Both the position numbers and the translations under genes were made by a program. A model generated the notes under the pieces. The model did not search any database, was not told the origin of the DNA, and saw only the letters and a list, made by a program, of their open reading frames with translations. From Terriglobales bacterium (GTDB lineage: Bacteria > Acidobacteriota > Terriglobia > Terriglobales > Acidobacteriaceae), in contig JANWKU010000003.1 of NCBI GenBank assembly GCA_025451215.1, positions 1 to 64,000 of the forward strand: a DNA stretch of 64,000 bases. Direction: 5' to 3'. Positions 22,659 to 35,212 of this stretch are shown in pieces. Within the stretch, counting starts at the first letter, position 1. Each line of letters opens with the position of its first letter.

Positions 22659-23552
22659 ATGCGAGTGAATCCCAACATCACGCCGGACATTCTTACGGCA
22701 ATCTGGCAAACACAGGCGCAGGAAAATACCGCGCTGCAGCAGATATCAACCGGCCGCAGGGTCAACGTCCCTTCTGACGATCCCGCCGCCGCGGCTGCCT
22801 TGGTTGGAAATCTGAACAGCAGTGCACAGACAGACCAATACCTTCAGAATACGACGAGCATCGAAGGGCAGCTTCAGACGGCAGACTCAACGCTCAGTTC
22901 CGTGGTTAGCGTTCTGAATCAGGCAATTTCACTGGGGGTGCAGGGTGCCAATGGCACATTGTCAGCATCAGACCAGCAGGGAATTGCGCAGCAAGTCATT
23001 GGCATCCAATCGCAGGTCCTGCAACTCGCGAACACCTCGTATCAAGGCATCTATATTTTTGCTGGCACAGCCACAACCACCCCGCCCTTCGTTGCAGACA
23101 CGTCGCAGCCCTCGGGAGTTACCTACAACGGAAACTCCAATACCAATACAGTAGAGATCGGAACGGGCCGCAACATTACCGTGAATATGCCCGGCGATCA
23201 GATGTTCCAGGGTGCCGGCGGCGATGTTATGAATTCATTGCAGGGGCTCATCACGGCTTTGCAGAGCGGCGATACAACCGCCATTGGCAATGCCACAACC
23301 CAGCTTCGGACTGCTTACAATTACGTGACCCAACAGCGCGTGTTCTATGGCAACGCGGTTGATCAGCTCAATGCCAATCAGACCTTCCTGCAAACAGAAA
23401 AGGTCAATCTTTCGTCGCAGGAAAATACTCTGGTAGGAGCGGACCTGTCAAAGGCGGCCACAGATCTGTCACAAGCCGAAGTCACGCATCAGGCGGCGCT
23501 CGCGGCAGCAGCAAAGGTCTCGCAGAATACGCTGCTGGATTATCTTAAGTAA
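22659..23552 (+). CDS. flgL: Flagellar hook-associated protein FlgL
   Basis: FlgL is the second junction protein and resembles flagellin at both ends. The 297-residue protein has the flagellin-like N-terminal region (ALQQISTGRRVNVPSDDPAA) and the C-terminal D0 helices (DLSKAATDLSQAEVTHQAAL with AAAAKVSQNTLLDYLK). It ends the flgM-N-K-L operon. No clear rho-independent terminator is seen directly behind it. Confidence 0.94.
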   Translation: MRVNPNITPDILTAIWQTQAQENTALQQISTGRRVNVPSDDPAAAAALVGNLNSSAQTDQYLQNTTSIEGQLQTADSTLSSVVSVLNQAISLGVQGANGTLSASDQQGIAQQVIGIQSQVLQLANTSYQGIYIFAGTATTTPPFVADTSQPSGVTYNGNSNTNTVEIGTGRNITVNMPGDQMFQGAGGDVMNSLQGLITALQSGDTTAIGNATTQLRTAYNYVTQQRVFYGNAVDQLNANQTFLQTEKVNLSSQENTLVGADLSKAATDLSQAEVTHQAALAAAAKVSQNTLLDYLK

Positions 23553-23695
23553 ACATCAGGCGTCCGATTTATTCATTTTCCTGCCACCATGTTTGTGGAG
23601 TTTTCATTTGCCCATGAGTCGGCCAATATCATGGCGAAATGCGCCAATTCGGAAGAGGGGTAACCTGCCTCGCTGAGTGATGTTGAAGAGTAAAG

Positions 23696-23850
23696 CCCGT
23701 GATGATCGAGGGTCCTGGGGCCCCCTTCAGGCGTAAGATGCAAGCAAAAGGCTGGCAACGCCCCCCGTAGCTGTACGCACCTACAACTTACGCGCCATCG
23801 CCAGAGCACAAGATCCCTTCGCCTGAAGGTCCCGCAGGATACTGCACGGG
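23696..23850 (-). ncRNA. Candidate structured RNA, probably sigma-28 driven
   Basis: The gap between the convergent flgL and fliS genes holds a long nested structure. CCCGTG (23696-23701) pairs with CACGGG (23845-23850), TCCTG (23713-23717) with CAGGA (23835-23839), GGG (23718-23720) with CCC (23831-23833), and CCTTCAGGCG (23724-23733) with CGCCTGAAGG (23820-23829). Inside, GCGTAAG (23731-23737) also matches CTTACGC (23787-23793). CTGGC (23752-23756) could pair with GCCAG (23800-23804), which would make a pseudoknot or a switch. I read it on the minus strand because a perfect GCCGATAA ends five bases before it there. No long open frame explains it, and I do not recognise a known RNA family. 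Confidence 0.5.
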
Positions 23851-23854
23851 TAAC

Positions 23855-23882
23855 TTATCGGCGTGACTGTTTCAATTCTTCA
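23855..23882 (-). promoter_or_regulatory. Sigma-28 (FliA) type promoter for the candidate RNA
   Basis: Read on the minus strand: TGAA (23882-23879), a 16-base spacer, and a perfect GCCGATAA (23862-23855). The expected start of transcription, about seven bases on, falls near 23848, within the first strand of the closing stem at 23845-23850. It lies 84 bases beyond the fliS stop, so it is not the promoter of a recognised protein gene. Confidence 0.55.
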
Positions 23883-23965
23883 ACCAGTCGGAATTACGGG
23901 AGTTATCTTCTTGCTGGTTACGTCAGGTGGATGAAGTTGAATCCACCTGCTCAGGCCGCGGGTCG

Positions 23966-24442
23966 TTATGCGGACCAAGTACTGACAGCAGTCTCATGCG
24001 TATCGTTGTTCGAGACTACTTGTATGTCGCGCGCCGGATCTTCAGTCTCGTGCGCAGTACTTGGTTCGGCAACCGGAGTGTTCACCTTCTCCCATGCGCC
24101 GCGCACATCCACGATCAGATCGATCTGGCGTTGTAGCATAGGTGCGCTCGCTTTGATGTGGGCTTCTAATATCTTGGCCCGCGCGACGGAATAAAACTGA
24201 GAGAGATTGCGGGCAGCCTGCTCTCCCTTTTCCATGTCCAGAGAACCCTCGAGTTGCAGTAGGACCAGGAAGGCGTGCTTCAGTTCAGCGGAGCGCTTTT
24301 CAACGTCGCCAGCCTGCATAGCCTCAATGGCGCGACGCAGGTCGGCTGCAAGCATGTCATACATAATAATGACCAAGCCCACCGATGTAGCGTTTTGGAT
24401 GGAAGCTTTACGGTAAGAAAGTTCAGTCTCTTTCCAGTTCAT
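23966..24442 (-). CDS. fliS: Flagellin export chaperone FliS
   Basis: FliS binds the flagellin C terminus and prevents premature polymerisation. The 158-residue protein has the conserved start (ELSYRKASIQNATSVGLVII then MYDMLAADLRRAIEAMQAGD) and the helical bundle through ARNLSQFYSVARAKILEAHI. A polar tail of about 40 residues extends beyond the usual 130-residue core. Its start overlaps the fliD stop by one base. Confidence 0.93.
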   Translation of the reverse strand: MNWKETELSYRKASIQNATSVGLVIIMYDMLAADLRRAIEAMQAGDVEKRSAELKHAFLVLLQLEGSLDMEKGEQAARNLSQFYSVARAKILEAHIKASAPMLQRQIDLIVDVRGAWEKVNTPVAEPSTAHETEDPARDIQVVSNNDTHETAVSTWSA

Positions 24443-25806
24443 TAGCTATTCCCCGAGGTGTTCTGGCCAAGCTCGGCCGCGACTTGTTTCTCCAGAATCG
24501 GCAACTGTTGCAACGTAGCGTCAATCTGGTTGTATTCGGTGGTGAGCCTCGCCTGTTCACTGTTCAGATAAACCTGGAAATCATCAATCTGGCTTTGCAG
24601 ATCTGAATTTTCGCTGCTGATGCTTTGTAATTCGACGGTGAACGCGCCGCCAATGGGGTCAGTAAACGTACTCAATTGACTATTCAATGCAGCGGCAAAG
24701 CCGTTAGCGGCGGTTCCTTGGAAAAAACTCTGCACCGCGCTGAAGTTGTTCTGGACCGCGCTGTTCAACGCTGAATTGTCGAGGGTCAGTGTTCCATTGT
24801 TGTTCATGGTGATGCCTAGCTGGCCCAGTGTGGCAATTGCGCTGCCCGAGGATGAATAACTGCCCGAGCCCAGTAATGCGTCCTGCAACATCCGGACGGT
24901 GCTGTCGCCGGCCAAAGTCCCCGAGGTATTGCTGGTTTGGTCAAAAGCAAATTGCGAATTTACGTTCTGGATCACTGCATTGTAGGCAGAGACGAAACTG
25001 CTAACCGCCTGGGATATCTGGTCTGAGTCGGGCGCGACTGCAACGTTCACCTCAGTGCCCGCCGATCCACTTACTAGATTCAACGTCAAACCATTCACCG
25101 CCCCGGTCACGCTGTTACTGGCGCTGCTGATGGGAATTCCATCTACTGTGAGCGAAGCATCCTTACCCTGGACTGCTTGGGTAAAGCCCACGCTACTGTC
25201 GTTCGTTATAGTGAAATCGTTAGCGGTGCCGGAAGCAGTGCTCACAAGTGCGAGCCGGGAGCCAGTGGAGTCATTGATGACGCTCGCCGTGACTCCCAGA
25301 TTCTGGCCATTGATGGCCGAAACCAAGTCGCTCAATGTATTGACGCCGCTGCCCACCGTAATTGTTGTGGGAGTATTCGACCCAACCTGAATATCAAAGC
25401 TTCCCGCAGTCAACGCGGTAGTGCTGTTTGCCACCGGATCCGAGTACCATGCTCCGGTTGTCGCAACATTGTTTACGACCACTACGTGGTTCCCCGCAGC
25501 GGTGCCGGGAGCGGCCGTGGCACTTACAACTCCCGTGTTTGAAGATGTGGCGGACATCGAAGATGCCGTTCCCGCGGGGTCTCCTAGTCCTTGCAACGAG
25601 GTTTGGAGCGTTGAAACCAGGCCTTCGAGCGTATTAATGGCGCTGGTTTGGCCCTGTAGAGTCGCTTGCTGCGCCTGCCATTGTTGTTGAGGGATTGCTT
25701 CGGTTTGAAGAATCTGACTTACGGCTCCGCTGACATCAATACCGGTACCCGAATTACCAAGAGCAGACAACAAAGAGCCAAGATTGACAGAGGGTAATGT
25801 ACTCAT
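24442..25806 (-). CDS. fliD: Flagellar filament cap protein FliD
   Basis: FliD (hook-associated protein 2) caps the filament and guides flagellin insertion. The 454-residue protein has the N-terminal region SLLSALGNSGTGIDVSGAVS followed by QILQTEAIPQQQWQAQQATL, a Thr/Val/Ala-rich middle part, and a C-terminal coiled coil (SISSENSDLQSQIDDFQVYL, NSEQARLTTEYNQIDATLQQ). Length is normal. It is transcribed after fliC and before fliS. A GGAG ribosome site lies a little far (about 12 bases) upstream of ATG 25806. Confidence 0.94.
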   Translation of the reverse strand: MSTLPSVNLGSLLSALGNSGTGIDVSGAVSQILQTEAIPQQQWQAQQATLQGQTSAINTLEGLVSTLQTSLQGLGDPAGTASSMSATSSNTGVVSATAAPGTAAGNHVVVVNNVATTGAWYSDPVANSTTALTAGSFDIQVGSNTPTTITVGSGVNTLSDLVSAINGQNLGVTASVINDSTGSRLALVSTASGTANDFTITNDSSVGFTQAVQGKDASLTVDGIPISSASNSVTGAVNGLTLNLVSGSAGTEVNVAVAPDSDQISQAVSSFVSAYNAVIQNVNSQFAFDQTSNTSGTLAGDSTVRMLQDALLGSGSYSSSGSAIATLGQLGITMNNNGTLTLDNSALNSAVQNNFSAVQSFFQGTAANGFAAALNSQLSTFTDPIGGAFTVELQSISSENSDLQSQIDDFQVYLNSEQARLTTEYNQIDATLQQLPILEKQVAAELGQNTSGNS

Positions 25807-25860
25807 CGGCTGGTGGACTCCCTATTCTTAAGCGTTATTGCTCCACCGCATACTAGATTT

Positions 25861-25882
25861 GGTGGGGCCGGTTAGCCCCACC
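25861..25882 (-). terminator. Perfect hairpin between fliC and fliD
   Basis: GGTGGGGC (25861-25868) and GCCCCACC (25875-25882) form an 8-bp GC-rich stem with a 6-base loop. It lies 16 bases behind the fliC stop in the direction of transcription. No U-tract follows, so it may act as a partial terminator or as a 3' RNA-stabilising hairpin that keeps flagellin mRNA more abundant than the fliD-fliS part. Confidence 0.55.
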
Positions 25883-25897
25883 AATCCTAGGCCGGAA

Positions 25898-26728
25898 TTA
25901 TTGGAGCAGCTTCAAAACTGATTGCTGCATCTGGTTCGATTGCTGTAAGGCGGTGATACCAGTCTGTTGCAGAATGCTGAACTTCGACAGAGCAGCAGAT
26001 GTCTGAGCAATGTCCGCAGAACGGATCCCGTCTTCGGCACTGGTCAGGTTCTGGATCTGGTTGCTCATAACGCCGGAAGCAGCCTGGAGTTGGTTGGAGC
26101 TGGCTCCCAGCGTGCCACGCAGTGAAGCAACCGCTGCGATCGCGCTGTTGATGGTGCCCAGTGAGGTCTGCGCGTTTCCAGCGGTCGTCAAGTCGCCGCT
26201 CAAGCTGGTGGATCCCAGGTGAGTTGAATCTACCTGCCCGATGGTGACGGACACGCTCGAGGTGCCAGCGGAGCTGGAATCCGACATGTAAACCGTCAAG
26301 TTTGCCGCCGCGCCGAAGATCGCCTGGCCGTTATAAGTCGTCTTCTGGCCAATCGTGTCAATTTCGGTCTTGATGGAGGTGAATTCAGCGTCCAACGCAG
26401 TACGCTGGCTATCGCTCACGGTTCCCGTGGACGATTCAGTTGCCAGAGTGACTGCGCGGTTCAGAAGTGAAGTGATCTGGGACAGGGCGCCGTCAGCAAC
26501 CTGCAACATGCCGACACCGTCCGTGGCATTGCGGGTTGACTGGGTTAAGGCGGTGATGTTCGCGTTCAAACCATCGGCGATAGCGAGACCGGCGGCATCA
26601 TCCGCACCAGAGTTGATGCGCGAACCGGAAGACAGCTGTTGCAGGGTCTTGTTCAAAGACATCTGCGTAAGATTCAACTGGTTCTGCGCTGACAGAGACG
26701 AAATGTTGTTCAGAATGCTAAGTGACAT
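25898..26728 (-). CDS. fliC: Flagellin FliC (short form)
   Basis: The filament protein. At 276 residues it consists almost only of the conserved terminal domains: N-terminal D0/D1 (SLSILNNISSLSAQNQLNLT, QQLSSGSRINSGADDAAGLA) and C-terminal D1/D0 (RGTLGASSNQLQAASGVMSN and QTSAALSKFSILQQTGITAL). There is only a short Ser/Thr-rich middle loop (residues about 165-200), so the variable D2/D3 domains are absent. ATG 26728 follows AAGGAGA at good spacing; the open frame upstream to 26782 lies in the leader. A FliA promoter lies 100 bases upstream and the leader contains a TTGAGG/CCTCAA hairpin. Large glycosyltransferases are next door. Confidence 0.96.
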   Translation of the reverse strand: MSLSILNNISSLSAQNQLNLTQMSLNKTLQQLSSGSRINSGADDAAGLAIADGLNANITALTQSTRNATDGVGMLQVADGALSQITSLLNRAVTLATESSTGTVSDSQRTALDAEFTSIKTEIDTIGQKTTYNGQAIFGAAANLTVYMSDSSSAGTSSVSVTIGQVDSTHLGSTSLSGDLTTAGNAQTSLGTINSAIAAVASLRGTLGASSNQLQAASGVMSNQIQNLTSAEDGIRSADIAQTSAALSKFSILQQTGITALQQSNQMQQSVLKLLQ

Positions 26729-26992: not shown

Positions 26993-29900
26993 TTAGTTTC
27001 CGGCTTTCGCGGCGCGGACTTTGCCTTCACCCCAGCTTTCCAGGAAGCTGGCGAAAAAGTGAGACCAATAGACCGCCGAAGCTGCTTCTTTCACGGCTTG
27101 CATCACGCTGCGAATTTTTTGTGCTCCTGCTGGTGTGTTCAAGTAGGGGCGCAAACTAGCGGAGTTCATCTTTTCCAATTCTTTTGTCTTTTGCAGTGTT
27201 TCGGCGCGGGTTTGCTTAAGCAGTTGCTTGATTTTTTTCATGGAAGCATCCTCGAGTTTTCCGAATGGGCCGGTGCCGTCCCCAACCAGCGAGGGATGAA
27301 TGCGGAACAATCGCGCCTGGGCCGTGCCGTAGCGGCGGGCCTTGTTGATGAACTCTTCTACCGAGGTGGAAAGATGATTGTGCTCAGATTTGATCGTGGC
27401 CAGTTTTTGCAGAAGGTACCCGGCATTGTGCATGCGGACACCAAGTTCAACGTCTGCGCCGATGTCAAGTGTTGGGTCAAAGGAGCCCAGAGACAACACA
27501 AGGTCTTTGGAAATGCTGAGATTTGAGGCCATGAAGTAAAAGCGCTTCGATTGGAGTTCAGGCGAAAGCAACGATTGAACGAAGAACAGTGGATTCTGAG
27601 CGATATACAAATTCAAGGCGTTTTCGGCAGCTTCCGACGGGTAGGCGCGGCTTCCGAGGATGGCGCCTTTTCTTTCTCCCAGTGCGCATTGCGCTTGAAG
27701 ATGATCGGCCAGCATGGAGGCGTGGGGAATGGTGTCATCTTTGATAAATAACAGGTAGGGACTTCGCGCCCGCTGAACGCCGACATGCAATGCCGCGCCG
27801 ATCCCAGTATGGCTTTGCCTGAGATATTCAAAACGACAGTAACTGGGGAACTCTTCGCACACTTGGGCCGTCCTGTCGGTTGATCCATCGTCCACAACGA
27901 TGATCTCCCAGTTGTCAGCCGGAAGTGATTGCGCCTCCAGGTTTGCCAGGCATACTTTGAGCTGCGCCGCGCGATTGTAGCTCGGAATAATTACGGAGAG
28001 TTTCGGACCCGATCCTTTTATCACGAGCGCCGGCGCTTGCGTTGGCAATGCGGATCTTTCGTGCTCCGCGTCTCTTCTAATGCATTCATATTCGCGAGCC
28101 TTGTCCTCATTCCCCAGTTCGTTGTAACAGCGCGCCATGAGGTTCAATACGTGATCGAATATCACATGCGCATGGTCGCCGTTGCGGGACGTGCTGAAGA
28201 TGTGACGAAGCTGTTCCAAAGCCTGCGAAGGACAACTGTGCGTTAAATGTTCTTCCGCGAGTTGCAAATATCCCGTAAGGCGCAGCCATTGACGATAGTG
28301 AACTGGGCGGCAGGTAAGAATATCCGGATTGAGTTTTTCGACTGCTAGGTAAGAAGGCTCATAGGGAGCATTCTTTGCAGGAAGGCTGGCGGAGGGAACC
28401 TGCTGGGCGAGATTGCGAATAGATTTCTGCAAACGCGCATAGCCGAATTCAATCGCCACGTGTTGCCGCCCTTCGCGTGATAGACGCTGCCACAATATGT
28501 TGTCCGTATAGGCCCGGACGATTGCGGCGGCAAATTCTTCGACGTTGTCGGCGATCAATGCGCTGTTTCCGTTGCGCAGATTCATCCCTTCGGCGCCTAT
28601 GGTCGTCGTGACCAGCGGCAGCCCGCTTCCAAGGGCGGAAAGGTTTTTGGTTTTGATCCCGGTTCCAAAGCGGATGGGACAGATGAACACTCGATGTTGC
28701 AGCAAAAAGGGCTTAATGTCTGGCACATGACCAATCGGCTGTACACCTTCTTGGGAGCCTAGTCCGGCCGGCAAGTTACTTCCAACCAAAGAAAGCGTTG
28801 CTTCTGGAACTTGTGCGCGGACCAGGGGCCAGACTTCCTTAAGCAACCATTCGACGCCGTCGCGATTGGCTGCATTGGTGAAATTGCCAAGAAAGAGAAC
28901 ACCCTTTCGGTCGGAGAGCTCCGGCCCCTCCGGTAAAAGTTCCGCAATCATGGGAAGCAAGCCGATATGCAACGACGAATCTCTCGAGAGCAACCCGCGC
29001 CGGTCATCTTCCGAGATGGACAGTAAGATGTCCGCGTTGCGATAGACTTCAATTTCGCGCGTGCCGTAGTTTTCAGCCCGTTCATAATCCGACCAAAGGC
29101 CCGTCAATTGCGCCATGCGCAGTTCGCGCAAGCCATGTTGGTCGTCCGTGAGGACCGCAATGCGGGTGCGTGGCGATTGTTGGCGAATCGTTCCCATGTA
29201 ATGTTCGGGGATCGAAGTGCTTGTCCAGAACCACATTAGAAGAATAGCGAGATCGAAATTGCCTTCCTGCAATATCTGCCCGAAATTCCAATCGATGGGA
29301 TCATCCACGCCTAAATAGTGCAGCCGCTCGCTATCATGCGCCCACACCTTGACGCCTAAATCCTCAAGGGCCGAGGTGTAATGCTCGCGGAGGTGGCCGT
29401 TGCGGGCGACATAAGTGACCTGATGCCCCTGCTCGCGAAGTTCTCGCACGATCTGCATGATCCGCACATCGGATCCATTACGGTCTGTCTGCGGAAGCAT
29501 CTCGTTGACGATGAGGACCCGCAGCGGACGGTCGCCGTTGGACTCTTCGGGTTCAGCGCTGCCGACCTGGTCGTCCCGCCGTACCGATTGTGTTCCTACG
29601 GTTAAATAAAACTCTTCCGGGTACCGTTCGATTGCGTTGTTTGTTTTCCGTGCAAGGCACAGCGTGTTGTCCCCTCGTCGTGCTATGGGAAGCCCGCGAG
29701 AGGCAAACAGCCGCAAGAGTGAGCGATCGCGGTTCCACCAACTGTCTTGCGTGATGATGCGTTCAATCTGAAAGCCGCCGAATGTCAGCAGTCTTTCAAC
29801 CTCATTTGTGGTGTATTCGCGATTGTGGTGGTCCGTGGGACGTCCGCCCGGTTCGTAGCGGCCGTATATGTAAGGGCTCTCGCCCTTCAATGCGTACTCC

Positions 29901-30748
29901 ACGCTCTTTGCGCTCGCCATGTTGGGAGTTGTCAGCAAGAGCAAACCAGAAGGTTTCAACACCCGGCTGATCTCGGCGACAACGCCCATAGGGTCCGAGA
30001 TCAAGTGCTCCAGCATCTCACAGCAGAGCACAACATCAAACGAAGAATTGGGATAGGGCCAGGGAAAGTGCTCGACATCAAAGTTATCAACGTCAACCTC
30101 GTGTGATTCAGTTCCGTCGATAGAGATGATTTGACGCACGGTCTTCGCGTCACCCTCCCAAATATCGCTGCAACGAACGTCGTATCCCTTCAGAGATTTT
30201 AGCGAAGGGGTAAGGTGATGGAACGCAGAGCCAAGTTCGAGCAGCGTCTGTCCTGAAGCAGCATTGGGCAATAACTCCAATGTTTTGACGTAACGGGCAA
30301 GATGAGTTTGCAGATAGGATTGCTCGTTGTCGTTTTTGCCCGCAAACTTCAGTAGATGAGGCGCAATGGCAGTTGATGGCAAACTGCATGCCGTGGCGAT
30401 GCGGCACTCCTCCCGCATCGCAATGACGGAGGAACGATCTGGTTCTGTAAGCCTGGGAACCGCTCGTTCCAACCATTCGATGGCCTCGCTGTTTCTTCCG
30501 GAATGCTTGAGCAAAACTCCAAGATTGAGGGCAGCTTCGGCGTTTTCACCGTCGAGCTCCAGCGCGCGACGATAGCCTTCCTCAGCTTCTTCGGATTTAC
30601 TTAATTGAAATTGCGCTGTGGCCCAATCGTTCCACAATTCGCTGGATTCTTCGTCGCCCAGGGCCTCGCCCAGCAGGTGCGCGGCCTCTTCCATGCGTCC
30701 CTCGTGGAACGCCTTCAGCGCATTTGCGTGGTCTTCATTGGTAGGCAT
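26993..30748 (-). CDS. Giant TPR / methyltransferase / GT4 / GT2 protein
   Basis: A 1,251-residue protein with at least four parts. Residues about 1-110 are TPR repeats (NDWATAQFQLSKSEEAEEGY and ALNLGVLLKHSG). Residues about 160-340 form a SAM-dependent methyltransferase-like domain (FDVVLCCEMLEHL; the glycine motif is changed to LLELGSAFHHL). From about 405 to 790 there is a GT4-type glycosyltransferase (RVLIVNEMLPQTDRNGSDVR; GVLFLGNFTNAANRDGVEWL). From about 940 to 1170 there is a GT2 domain (LSVIIPSYNRAAQLKVCLAN; IIVVDDGSTDRT). The C terminus is helical. Its position just upstream of fliC on the same strand suggests flagellin glycosylation, as in other flagellar glycosylation islands; that is inference. 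Confidence 0.8.
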   Translation of the reverse strand: MPTNEDHANALKAFHEGRMEEAAHLLGEALGDEESSELWNDWATAQFQLSKSEEAEEGYRRALELDGENAEAALNLGVLLKHSGRNSEAIEWLERAVPRLTEPDRSSVIAMREECRIATACSLPSTAIAPHLLKFAGKNDNEQSYLQTHLARYVKTLELLPNAASGQTLLELGSAFHHLTPSLKSLKGYDVRCSDIWEGDAKTVRQIISIDGTESHEVDVDNFDVEHFPWPYPNSSFDVVLCCEMLEHLISDPMGVVAEISRVLKPSGLLLLTTPNMASAKSVEYALKGESPYIYGRYEPGGRPTDHHNREYTTNEVERLLTFGGFQIERIITQDSWWNRDRSLLRLFASRGLPIARRGDNTLCLARKTNNAIERYPEEFYLTVGTQSVRRDDQVGSAEPEESNGDRPLRVLIVNEMLPQTDRNGSDVRIMQIVRELREQGHQVTYVARNGHLREHYTSALEDLGVKVWAHDSERLHYLGVDDPIDWNFGQILQEGNFDLAILLMWFWTSTSIPEHYMGTIRQQSPRTRIAVLTDDQHGLRELRMAQLTGLWSDYERAENYGTREIEVYRNADILLSISEDDRRGLLSRDSSLHIGLLPMIAELLPEGPELSDRKGVLFLGNFTNAANRDGVEWLLKEVWPLVRAQVPEATLSLVGSNLPAGLGSQEGVQPIGHVPDIKPFLLQHRVFICPIRFGTGIKTKNLSALGSGLPLVTTTIGAEGMNLRNGNSALIADNVEEFAAAIVRAYTDNILWQRLSREGRQHVAIEFGYARLQKSIRNLAQQVPSASLPAKNAPYEPSYLAVEKLNPDILTCRPVHYRQWLRLTGYLQLAEEHLTHSCPSQALEQLRHIFSTSRNGDHAHVIFDHVLNLMARCYNELGNEDKAREYECIRRDAEHERSALPTQAPALVIKGSGPKLSVIIPSYNRAAQLKVCLANLEAQSLPADNWEIIVVDDGSTDRTAQVCEEFPSYCRFEYLRQSHTGIGAALHVGVQRARSPYLLFIKDDTIPHASMLADHLQAQCALGERKGAILGSRAYPSEAAENALNLYIAQNPLFFVQSLLSPELQSKRFYFMASNLSISKDLVLSLGSFDPTLDIGADVELGVRMHNAGYLLQKLATIKSEHNHLSTSVEEFINKARRYGTAQARLFRIHPSLVGDGTGPFGKLEDASMKKIKQLLKQTRAETLQKTKELEKMNSASLRPYLNTPAGAQKIRSVMQAVKEAASAVYWSHFFASFLESWGEGKVRAAKAGN

Positions 30749-30954
30749 GCTCTAGCTCGCGCGAAATCGCAACATCTTAGTGTTTTTGTCCGGGCGGAAG
30801 TGTCCTCAAGATGGATAGCAATTAGCTTGCCTCATTTTGTGTTAATCGGACTGCGAACCTAGCCCGCGGAAGTTGGTTGAACGAGGTTAGAAACAGATGA
30901 GGAAGCGCAATTGCTTGTATGGTTCCGTGTTTATCTCAGCGGGAGTGTTTGCAC

Positions 30955-32592
30955 ATGACAGCAGATCACCAGTTAGCAGTCGAGTCTTATAGAAAGGGAG
31001 CATTGACCGAAGCCGATAAGTTGATGGCATCGGCACTCATTCAGGAAGAGAACTGTGAAACCTGGAATGACTGGGCCATGGTGCAACTCGCGCTCGGTCG
31101 TAAGCACGAGGCGGAAAAGGGTTTTCGGAAGGCCCTCCAACTTGACCAGAGCTATGACAAAGCGGCGGCGAATTTGGGAATTCTTTTATTCAGCGCTACT
31201 AAGTTCACAGAGTCTGCCCCGTACCTGCAGCAGGCGTGCGCCACTGCGGATGCGCAAGAGCGCGAAACACTCAAGCGAATGCTGACAAAATGCGAATCCA
31301 CTCGGGCAGGAAGCTTTGCGATGGTCTCGAATGCGAGCTTGTCCGCGGCCGCGGCGAAGCCTGCAAAGGCTACCCCAAATGCGACCCCTGAACTGTCTGA
31401 AGGGGAGCCGGCATTGCTCAAGATCTATCGCAAATTCGATACTGAACTTGCAAACCTGCGGGCCGAAGCCCAAAACTTTGCCGCAAAATATCCGGACAAT
31501 ACCGAAGGGCGTTTTTTCCTGGCTGATATTCTTCTGGCATCGGGGCGCGCGGATGAAGCCTTCCTCGAATATGAAAAAATAAAAGCAACAGCTTCGCCGA
31601 ATCAAGTCAGGCGGGCGCAGCAGGGTATGCAGCAGTGTCTTGCCGACCGCGACTACTTTCCACCTGCGTATGCCAATCGCCTGATATCGGGGGAATATTT
31701 TTCAGGAATCAATTCAGCCGTGTGGCGGAGTTACGCCAACCGTGAAATCCAGCGCGGCCGCGCCATTGCCCGGCAGGTGCGCAAGCACATCCCTCTTTCA
31801 GGCCGGCGCATGCTCGACGTGGGATGCGGCTACGGCGGGACGCTGATTTCTTTCGCAGAACAGGGATGCGATGTGACTGGAGTGGAGATTGATGCGGAAC
31901 GTGCGCGGGTAGGCCAAAAGCGGCTTGCCGACCTCGGAATCAAATCCGACTACCGTCTTGATGATATCTGCGCTCCAGGAATAAAAGAGCGCATTGGCAC
32001 CTTCGACATTATCGTCGTGCAGGATGTCCTCGAGCATGTTATGGATCCCGGCCTCACAATTGCGGCCCTGGCCCAGTTGCTGCGTCGCAACGGCGTGATC
32101 TACGTAGTGGTCGGAAACAAATACTCGCCGGACCAATTGATGGCGGACCATCACTACGCGCAAGCGGGCATGACGATTCTTTCTCGCCCGCAGGCAATTG
32201 AATACTTTAAGGTAGCGACCGGATCGGGAGCGGAATCTTATGGCGTCGGCTATTGGCGAACGGAGGCCTACTACCGGCGGATGTTCGCGCGCCACGGTGT
32301 GCAATTGGATCATCTAGGGAACTTCAGCAACGTACACCATGTGCTGTGGTACGCGAAGTGTGTGCTGGACGTCTGCAAGCGCGCGGAGAAGGAAATTCAT
32401 CCAAAGCTCCCCGCCGTTCTTCAGGAGCGCATACGTCGCCGCATGCTTACGGTGGCCCGGTATTTTGCGCATATTAGTGACATCATTGCGCAAACGGAAT
32501 CTGACTCAAAATTGCAAGCGACCATCTGTGACAGGTTGGTGAAGAAGATATGTCTTCCCACCTGGGCCTTTGTGGGCCGCAAGGAAAGCTGA
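30955..32592 (+). CDS. TPR-containing SAM-dependent methyltransferase
   Basis: A 545-residue protein. Residues 1-110 form TPR repeats closely similar to the N terminus of the divergent 1,251-residue neighbour (both have NDWA, EAE-G-R-AL-LD and A-NLG-LL), so the two probably arose by duplication. A second helical part follows to about residue 235. The class I methyltransferase domain starts near residue 280 (RRMLDVGCGYGGTLISFAEQ, CDVTGVEIDAERARV, FDIIVVQDVLEHVMDPG). ATG 30955 follows GGGAG. It may modify a sugar or the flagellin itself. Confidence 0.8.
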   Translation: MTADHQLAVESYRKGALTEADKLMASALIQEENCETWNDWAMVQLALGRKHEAEKGFRKALQLDQSYDKAAANLGILLFSATKFTESAPYLQQACATADAQERETLKRMLTKCESTRAGSFAMVSNASLSAAAAKPAKATPNATPELSEGEPALLKIYRKFDTELANLRAEAQNFAAKYPDNTEGRFFLADILLASGRADEAFLEYEKIKATASPNQVRRAQQGMQQCLADRDYFPPAYANRLISGEYFSGINSAVWRSYANREIQRGRAIARQVRKHIPLSGRRMLDVGCGYGGTLISFAEQGCDVTGVEIDAERARVGQKRLADLGIKSDYRLDDICAPGIKERIGTFDIIVVQDVLEHVMDPGLTIAALAQLLRRNGVIYVVVGNKYSPDQLMADHHYAQAGMTILSRPQAIEYFKVATGSGAESYGVGYWRTEAYYRRMFARHGVQLDHLGNFSNVHHVLWYAKCVLDVCKRAEKEIHPKLPAVLQERIRRRMLTVARYFAHISDIIAQTESDSKLQATICDRLVKKICLPTWAFVGRKES

Positions 32593-32625
32593 GCGAGGTA
32601 GTTTGGAGTTGTTTTCTGGAAAATA

Positions 32626-33993
32626 CTACGTGCTTGAACCTGCGCTCGCTGCCTGTGCATTTTGGGCTGGATTGGCGGTGGCGTATTTGGCGGATACTTC
32701 CTTTGCGGCCAATTGCAGTTCCGGGGATGCAGGAAACATCTGTAATCCAGAAGCGAGAATGTGTGCCGCCTGCTCCCACTGCTGCATCTGAGCCCGGATG
32801 CTGGCTGCTCGCATGAATAGCTTGGGATGCGCGATGTGAGACAAGAATTCTTCGGATGCCACAGCAGCCCGATTCAATTCCTTCACCAAGACGTAGGCTT
32901 TTACCAAACGATCGTGCACTTCAAGCAGGGCGGGCGCTGCTTTTGCTGCGCGCTCGAGTTTTGCGATGCCGGCCTTATGCTGACCAAGCTTTACTTCAAC
33001 GAATCCCAATTTACTCTCAAGAATTGGGTCGTGCTGTCTCAACTTAAGTGCCTCCCGATAGGCGGCGCGGGCCTCGGGCAATTGTTCAAGATAATGAAAA
33101 GCGTCTCCACGAAGCTGTTCCCGTAAAGCCGCACCCTTGCTGTCTTTTCTTGCGTTTCCAAGCGCCGTCAGCGCTTGCTGAGGCTGCCCAAGGTTCAGCA
33201 ATGCCATGCTCTTGAAAATCCACGCGTCGGAGGCTTGTGGCTGGAGAATGAGGGCCCGGTCCAGGCAGCGCAACGCTTCTTCCGCATTTCCCAGACATTC
33301 ATATTCCTGCAGGCCAAGTTGAATCCATGCAAGGGAGTCATTGGGCTGTTCTTCAGTTTTAAGCCTTAACAGATCGCGATAGAAGACAGCTTTGTCATCC
33401 TTTTGCTGCTGAGACGACATCTGGCCAAAATGATGGATGAAGAAAGGAGCCGGCAATAACTTCATTCCTAAAGCTTGGATCGGCCCTTCTACGGCCTCGT
33501 GCACGCGCCCCATGAAAAAAATCTCGGGATGACGACGGAAGAACCGGCAGTTTTCATGTACCACGTAGGCCGGTGCATCTTTCGCGCGCGCGTGACGGTT
33601 GTCGTTCGGAACCGCTATGCGATCCCATGCGCGAGTAAATTTGTTCGGAACATAGTTGCGAATTGGTGTGATGTAGCCGCCTACATTCGATGCCTTTAAG
33701 AGATCGGGAATTCGCTTCCGTGCCTCCTCGTCCAGTTCTTCGTCTGCGTCCAGAACCAGCACCCAATCGGCAGTCACCGGCTTAAGGGCCGCATTGCGAG
33801 CGTTGGCGAAGTGGTTCTCCCATGGAAATGAAACGAGTATGGCCCCGAATTCTCGCGCAATGTCGCAGGTTTGGTCGGCGCAGCCAGTATCGGCAATAAC
33901 GATTTGGTCCACAATGCCGCACACACTTTCAAGGCACGCACGAATAGTGCTGGCGCCGTTCTTCACGATCATGGAAAGGGCGATTGTAGGCAT
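32626..33993 (-). CDS. GT2 glycosyltransferase with TPR repeats
   Basis: About 455 residues. The first 230 form a GT-A fold family 2 glycosyltransferase (ALSMIVKNGASTIRACLESV; IVIADTGCADQTCDIAREFG; the DxD-type metal site in WVLVLDADEELDEEARKRIP). The remainder consists of TPR repeats (GLQEYECLGNAEEALRCLDR; LNLGQPQQALTALGNARKDS). I start at ATG 33993 because MPTIALSMIVKN is the normal opening of this family; a TTG 42 bases earlier is possible. It probably transfers sugars to a protein or lipid acceptor; its place in the flagellin glycosylation block is inference. Confidence 0.82.
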   Translation of the reverse strand: MPTIALSMIVKNGASTIRACLESVCGIVDQIVIADTGCADQTCDIAREFGAILVSFPWENHFANARNAALKPVTADWVLVLDADEELDEEARKRIPDLLKASNVGGYITPIRNYVPNKFTRAWDRIAVPNDNRHARAKDAPAYVVHENCRFFRRHPEIFFMGRVHEAVEGPIQALGMKLLPAPFFIHHFGQMSSQQQKDDKAVFYRDLLRLKTEEQPNDSLAWIQLGLQEYECLGNAEEALRCLDRALILQPQASDAWIFKSMALLNLGQPQQALTALGNARKDSKGAALREQLRGDAFHYLEQLPEARAAYREALKLRQHDPILESKLGFVEVKLGQHKAGIAKLERAAKAAPALLEVHDRLVKAYVLVKELNRAAVASEEFLSHIAHPKLFMRAASIRAQMQQWEQAAHILASGLQMFPASPELQLAAKEVSAKYATANPAQNAQAASAGSST

Positions 33994-34168
33994 TTTAATG
34001 AAGATTAAAGTTTGATTTGAGACTTGCAGCCTCAACCAATCCAGGGAGCACGCGCCATGCCAGTGGATGCGTCAGAGAGATCAGATTTGCCGCAACGCGA
34101 ATTAGGGTCAGATGAGGCATCGGGATTGCTGATGTGAGAGAGGAGAGTTGTGTCGAAAGGAAATCTTC

Positions 34169-35113
34169 TTGAAACTGGCATGCTTTCATCCCGCTTCCAT
34201 CTTTTGCGCCTGGGGCGTGGCCACTGGTTTGGTGGACACTCTAAACCGCATGGGACACCCGACCACTGGTTTTGCCGTGGATGTGACAAAAAGTGGAATT
34301 GATCCGCGGCAATATCCGAGCGCCGAGCAATTACGTGAGTTTGATGGGATTCTGGTTTCAGGACCGGAGCATGTGCGGGGACATTTGCTCAAGCTATATC
34401 CCCGTTGGCACAAGATCTCGGTTCCGAAAGTCTCGTGGATGCATGAGACGGTTGAACGAGAAGACTATGGCCGGATGCCACTGGAAGAGATACGCGAATT
34501 TGCCGATTTCACATTTTGTTCTGCGGTCCAGGACGAAAAATATGGGCTGAAATGGCTTCCTTTCGGCGTGGACACTGAAGTCTTTAAGCCGGACTGGAAC
34601 CAGCCTAAAGAGTATGACGCGGCATTCATTGGCCTCATCTATCCCAAACGAGCAGCATTTTTGGAGACTTTAAAGCCCTTTCTGAAGGGAATTACGTTGA
34701 AATTGGGTAATGTGCAGGTGCTTGATTTGAGCGGTGTGCGTATCCGGGAAAGCGCCGCACTGTATGCGGACAATTTACGGAAGATCAAAGTTTTTGTAAA
34801 TCTTCCTAGTCTTTCAGAACTGGTAGTTACAAAAGTATATGAAGCCTTGGCATGTGGAACGTTCTTGATTACTCCAACCATCCCTTCGCAAAAAAATTAC
34901 GACAACATCCTCGCCCACTATTACGACCCTGGTAAGCCGGGAGAACTGGCGGAGAGAATCCGTTTTTGTTTGGAAAATGAAGCTCAGCGGGTAGAGGCCA
35001 CGCGCGCATGTTGCGAGCAAGTGCATAGGCTCGACAGGCTGGAGTTGCGTTGCGAAGCGTTGCTGGAAGCATTTCAAGGCCGTACCCGCGCTCACTCAGC
35101 AGGGAAGAAATAG
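34169..35113 (+). CDS. CgeB-like glycosyltransferase family 1 protein
   Basis: About 314 residues. The C-terminal half resembles the CgeB/Glyco_trans_1_2 type: WLPFGVDTEVFKPDWNQPKE, YDAAFIGLIYPKRAAFLETL, and SELVVTKVYEALACGTFLIT, the nucleotide-sugar binding region with the conserved E-A-CG. I take TTG 34169 as start (MKLACFHPASIFCAWGV) because AAAGGA (34156-34161) lies 7 bases upstream; a TTG at 34148 would add seven residues. It closes the glycosylation block and precedes the PAS-GGDEF-motAB operon. Confidence 0.72.
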   Translation: MKLACFHPASIFCAWGVATGLVDTLNRMGHPTTGFAVDVTKSGIDPRQYPSAEQLREFDGILVSGPEHVRGHLLKLYPRWHKISVPKVSWMHETVEREDYGRMPLEEIREFADFTFCSAVQDEKYGLKWLPFGVDTEVFKPDWNQPKEYDAAFIGLIYPKRAAFLETLKPFLKGITLKLGNVQVLDLSGVRIRESAALYADNLRKIKVFVNLPSLSELVVTKVYEALACGTFLITPTIPSQKNYDNILAHYYDPGKPGELAERIRFCLENEAQRVEATRACCEQVHRLDRLELRCEALLEAFQGRTRAHSAGKK

Positions 35114-35184: not shown

Positions 35185-35212
35185 TAAAGTCTAAAAACTC
35201 AAAGGCCGATAA
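35185..35212 (+). promoter_or_regulatory. Sigma-28 (FliA) promoter of the PAS-GGDEF-motA-motB operon
   Basis: TAAA at 35185-35188, a 16-base spacer, and a perfect GCCGATAA at 35205-35212. Transcription would begin near 35220, 25 bases before ATG 35245. It has the best combined match to the FliA consensus in the window and supports control of the stator genes by FliA, as is known for motAB in enterobacteria. Confidence 0.8.

Follow-up and report, generated by a model that had tools for sequence, protein, structure and literature searches.

In E. coli, four sRNAs are known to depend on FliA, namely UhpU, MotR, FliX, and FlgO (PMC10578931). These sigma-28 sRNAs are UTR-derived and bind Hfq; FliX and FlgO are processed from sense mRNAs, and FlgO comes from the 3' UTR of flgL (PMC10578931). 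In Campylobacter jejuni, FlmR (CJnc170) is a FliA-dependent sRNA that is linked to flagellar regulation (PMC11187230), and CjNC paralogues are also known (PMC4626219). Our search of the literature on Acidobacteria and flagellar small RNAs found no study of a FliA-dependent sRNA.

The locus studied here lies in a window of 64,000 nucleotides from a Terriglobales bacterium of the family Acidobacteriaceae, whose genome was analysed as a draft (232 contigs, ~90% complete, 3.85 Mb). Two flagellar operons converge, as an earlier note on this DNA had claimed, with flgL on the plus strand and fliS on the minus strand, and leave a gap of 413 nt (Table 1). The gene names FliS, FliD, flagellin, FlgM, MotA, and FlgL were verified by profile. 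FliA is encoded on the contig of the window (C3, 13449-14117), FlgM likewise within the window, and an Hfq gene was found in the genome. Frame and profile checks of the gap gave no significant coding signal. We propose that a noncoding transcription unit specific to this lineage occupies the gap. It would belong to the late flagellar (sigma-28, FliA) class and might be a structured sRNA. This reading is tentative, and we put its probability at about 0.4.

As evidence, the promoter site outweighs the fold. On the minus strand, the TGAA that had been claimed lies exactly 16 nt from a perfect GCCGATAA. The position of this site predicts a transcription start at ~23851-23848, which agrees with the claimed start at the edge of the closing stem. 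The site shows the features by which sigma-28 promoters were recognized here (TAAA-like -35, spacer of 15-16 nt, -10 GCCGATAA), with one mismatch in the -35 element. Its 16-nt spacing is common to the flgM site (TAAA-16-GCCGATTA) and the GGDEF-motAB site (TAAA-16-GCCGATAA). In the 3.85 Mb of the genome, TNAA-16-GCCGATAA occurs six times, compared with once for a control pattern. Four of these copies are within long genes; the sole two non-coding copies are the gap site and the GGDEF-motAB site, both in the flagellar window. By arithmetic from the genome frequency, such a site is expected in a 413-nt gap with a chance of ~0.0006. Near-matches do occur by chance, because a one-mismatch GCCGATGA with TAAG at 16 nt, probably a chance occurrence itself, overlaps the fliD start codon (window 25803-25810). 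With FliA encoded in the window, the spacing of the flgM and motAB sites, and one of the two exact non-coding matches, the claimed sigma-28 control is well supported, and we consider the promoter in the gap to be probably real. The GGDEF-motAB site (window 35185-35212) is a perfect sigma-28 promoter ahead of a PAS-GGDEF gene, behind which motA and motB lie, and may link c-di-GMP synthesis to late flagellar expression.

The minus strand contains all four nested blocks (6, 5, 3, and 10 bp) that the earlier note had placed around ~155 bases; the blocks of 6, 5, and 10 bp have predicted pairing probabilities of 0.93-1.0. The alternative 7-bp helix proposed there exists in the sequence as well; it is disfavoured, as forcing it costs 8.4 kcal/mol. 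The energy of the minus-strand fold (about -69 kcal/mol) has a z of -1.81 and is equalled or bettered by 7 of 200 shuffles; with 1000 shuffles, P is 0.036. When transcripts are grown from the predicted start, z peaks at -2.36 at 156 nt and is -0.5 or weaker from 200 nt on. The minus strand hence folds with z of about -1.8 to -2.4, which is borderline, and the plus strand folds too: its fold of -56.8 kcal/mol has a z of -1.65, almost equal to the minus strand relative to shuffles, and z is -2.22 over 23676-23890. Given this small difference, the choice of strand comes from the promoter alone, not from energy.

The best 160-nt fold of the gap is equalled in 9% of shuffled gaps. The inverted repeats of the gap stand above shuffles at P of about 0.01-0.05; an exact inverted repeat of 10 bp is found in 3.5% of gaps after shuffling, and when the window is cut into tiles of 413 nt, 7.8% of them contain one. 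Rarer is the unbranched full-length shape, seen in 1.7% of shuffles. A fold that is both unbranched over the full length and at least as stable appears in 1 of 1000 shuffles (0.1%); this figure is the strongest argument for structure, although the boundaries were set post hoc when the fold was already known. Of the claimed structured RNA, the predicted helices stand and are suggestive; the statistics are borderline, no homologue was found, and the hairpin has no recognizable intrinsic terminator. Together with the way the predicted start fits the closing stem, these statistics make a discrete structured sRNA possible.

Table 1 Features of the flgL-fliS gap and its flanks (positions in the window)
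Feature	Position	Strand	Remarks
flgL	22659..23552	+	left flank, convergent; profile-checked
Candidate structured RNA	23696..23850	-	single unbranched hairpin, 155 nt, ~55 pairs, -68.6 kcal/mol
Closing helix	CCCGTG 23850-23845 / CACGGG 23701-23696	-	predicted pairing probability 0.98-1.0
Second helix	TCCTG 23839-23835 / CAGGA 23717-23713	-	fold prediction
GGG/CCC block	between TCCTG helix and 10-bp helix	-	present in sequence
10-bp helix	CCTTCAGGCG 23829-23820 / CGCCTGAAGG 23733-23724	-	fold prediction
Inner 9-bp helix	23804-23796 / 23760-23752	-	pairing probability 0.81-0.88; absent from the earlier note
Alternative 7-bp helix	GCGTAAG 23793-23787 / CTTACGC 23737-23731	-	disfavoured
Sigma-28 promoter (candidate)	23855..23882	-	-35 TGAA 23882-23879, 16-nt spacer, -10 GCCGATAA 23862-23855
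Perfect 9-bp hairpin	23924..23949		directly after fliS, upstream of candidate promoter
fliS	23966..24442	-	right flank; profile-checked

In a scan of the 14-kb flagellar region, the minus-strand fold reaches a z of ~-2 for its GC content, and several other segments fold better. The strongest fold of the region (25821-26000, z about -4) lies at the fliC/fliD boundary, contains GGTGGGGC...GCCCCACC at ~25861-25882, and is probably a fliC 3' hairpin. A larger imperfect inverted duplication enclosing the hairpin, with concentric arms at 23660/23921 and 23682/23884, was unsupported (P 0.05-0.13).

The RNA had not been recognized from its sequence, and a search of Rfam agrees: neither gathering nor permissive thresholds gave a family, and the best subthreshold match (a snoRNA, E 4.1) is a chance hit. 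BLAST of the element against 40 relatives, phages, and plasmids returned the self-match alone. The same was true for a single-sequence covariance model run against 300 genomes of the family, and for this model with laxer filters on 12 selected close relatives, where E values up to 10 were allowed. A repeat element was rejected, as the genome has no second copy. The earlier note had held that a lack of conserved pairing in relatives would speak against the RNA; what is missing from the relatives is the entire sequence. Therefore, a lineage-specific RNA or chance remain.

The convergent order of flgL and fliS is common in the Acidobacteriaceae. A first contig scan based on FliS gave no confirmed relative. 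Among loci fetched with FlgL, a small gene of ~100-140 residues on the fliS strand is present in all 16 with a fliS-flgL gap of at least 400 nt, and four loci that lack the gene have 59-105 nt between fliS and flgL; another five loci showed no fliS within the stretch. The fliS-based set added one more gene-less locus (L008) with ~230 nt between homologous ends. No sigma-28 site was found in the flgL-fliS gap of any relative examined. The small proteins (L006, L003, L004, L010, L011, L015, and others), whose gene is conserved behind fliS across the Acidobacteriaceae, share the motif YRxNLE...LP...LLxERARL...AAxAWA. They are candidates for a FliT-type chaperone given their position, where FliT often sits; the label comes from position only, because no Pfam or NCBIfam family matches. 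In the one further genome that the genus has, the locus shows a 5-kb insertion and an intact small gene, and glycosyltransferase-like genes lie between fliS and flgL (L037:2856-7095). These are similar to large glycosyltransferase/methyltransferase-like genes with TPR-like repeats beside fliC in our window (26993-35113), which are probably a flagellin glycosylation island, all names being given by eye.

The genome under study keeps a gap of 413 nt with neither the small gene nor a recognizable remnant. Besides the set in the window, it carries a second set of fliD, fliS, and small gene on contig C81 (L041, G000:C81:5000-11458); behind this second fliS lies its small gene, and no other copy scored convincingly. 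A profile scan of the gap in all frames found no small gene, and a frameshift-tolerant alignment scored 14.4 against a null of 13.6 ± 2.1 (P 0.28). The latter detects simulated decay up to ~20-30% substitutions, a power somewhat overstated as the test gene was in the model. A recent pseudogene is thus ruled out by these scans, in contrast to an old, decayed copy.

Starting from the site, the helices, and the FliA, FlgM, and Hfq genes, all present in the genome, we infer transcription, stability, target, and function as follows. On the minus strand, at a distance of 115 nt downstream of fliS, FliA polymerase would start at ~23851 and proceed toward the flgL 3' end. The first 155 nt of the transcript would fold back as a single long hairpin, and the RNA would be made alongside motAB after FlgM export. 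Its likeliest action would be post-transcriptional at the late stage, by base pairing via short exposed loops (CCUUU at 23751-23747 and, at the tip, GGUGCG), possibly aided by Hfq; alternatively, it might contact the 3' end of flgL mRNA as an antisense RNA. When the translation starts of flagellar genes were scanned for targets by duplex energy, with accessibility left aside, no flagellar gene stood out, and the best z (-1.83) belonged to a large glycosyltransferase-like gene. The actions that had been suggested on flagellar mRNAs, on proteins, or as a switch thus gained no evidence, the switch helix being the disfavoured one of Table 1.

If we accept the promoter, which is probably real, the simplest interpretation is a noncoding transcript that depends on FliA. 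We count in its favour that a separate hairpin, which probably marks where the fliD-fliS mRNA ends, closes the fliS side before the promoter, and that the gap is still 413 nt long compared with 59-105 nt in gene-less relatives. The gap is also as long as the slot that houses the small gene in relatives, and it could be this slot after long decay, its helices and promoter-like site being functionless. That no part of the gap is conserved and that near-matches such as GCCGATGA with TAAG arise fits this reading; the rarity of an exact sigma-28 site in such a gap and the missing trace of the small gene in the frameshift-tolerant scan speak against it. We hold chance to be unlikely, and it is the rival that we take most seriously. 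Next to it stands a real promoter with an incidental fold, whose unstructured or longer antisense transcript would run into the flgL 3' end, lowering expression or stopping convergent transcription. The lack of a terminator behind the hairpin, the flgL end just 144 nt past it, and the borderline energy statistics would suit such a transcript; that the predicted start coincides with the closing stem and that the full-length unbranched shape is rare would not, and we rate it as rather improbable.

Other explanations carry less weight. The fold statistics of the plus strand would allow a structured flgL 3' UTR, positioned like FlgO of E. coli, which derives from that UTR (PMC10578931), but the promoter at the edge of the fold is on the minus strand and the plus strand has no U-rich 3' end, which makes this very unlikely. 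The minus strand holds an open GTG frame of 78 aa downstream of the promoter (23809-23573); as it matches neither a Pfam or NCBIfam family nor the small gene of the relatives and shows no obvious ribosome-binding site, an undetected small protein is most improbable. The FliA-dependent noncoding transcript remains our preferred reading. Its fullest version, to which we give a small chance, is that a new flagellar sRNA of acidobacteria arose where a gene behind fliS had been lost, that it has a sigma-28 promoter of its own, and that it folds from the first base onward into a full-length hairpin resembling 6S RNA and acts at the late flagellar stage. If transcribed, the element would be a de novo sRNA at the place of a lost gene and a direct test of flagellar sRNA origins; if not, it is an example of how persuasive a hairpin with a promoter may seem to the eye when a gap is rich in GC.

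6S RNA is one long unbranched hairpin of ~160-190 nt that begins at the transcription start. The candidate resembles it as a full-length unbranched hairpin from its predicted start, and differs in having no large central bubble and no Rfam match; the 6S covariance model (RF00013) did not match here, and a clear 6S RNA of the genome lies elsewhere (C39:3094-3280). With FlmR/CJnc170 of C. jejuni, the candidate would share FliA dependence and the flagellar link, without a sequence or structural relation found through Rfam. Unlike UhpU, MotR, FliX, and FlgO of E. coli, to which no sequence relation was found, it would have its own promoter, run antisense to flgL, and belong to another phylum; what it would share with them is FliA control and a noncoding RNA beside flagellar genes. 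The sigma-28 sRNAs of E. coli and Campylobacter are thus the closest known kinds, and it is the predicted promoter alone that would place the candidate among them.
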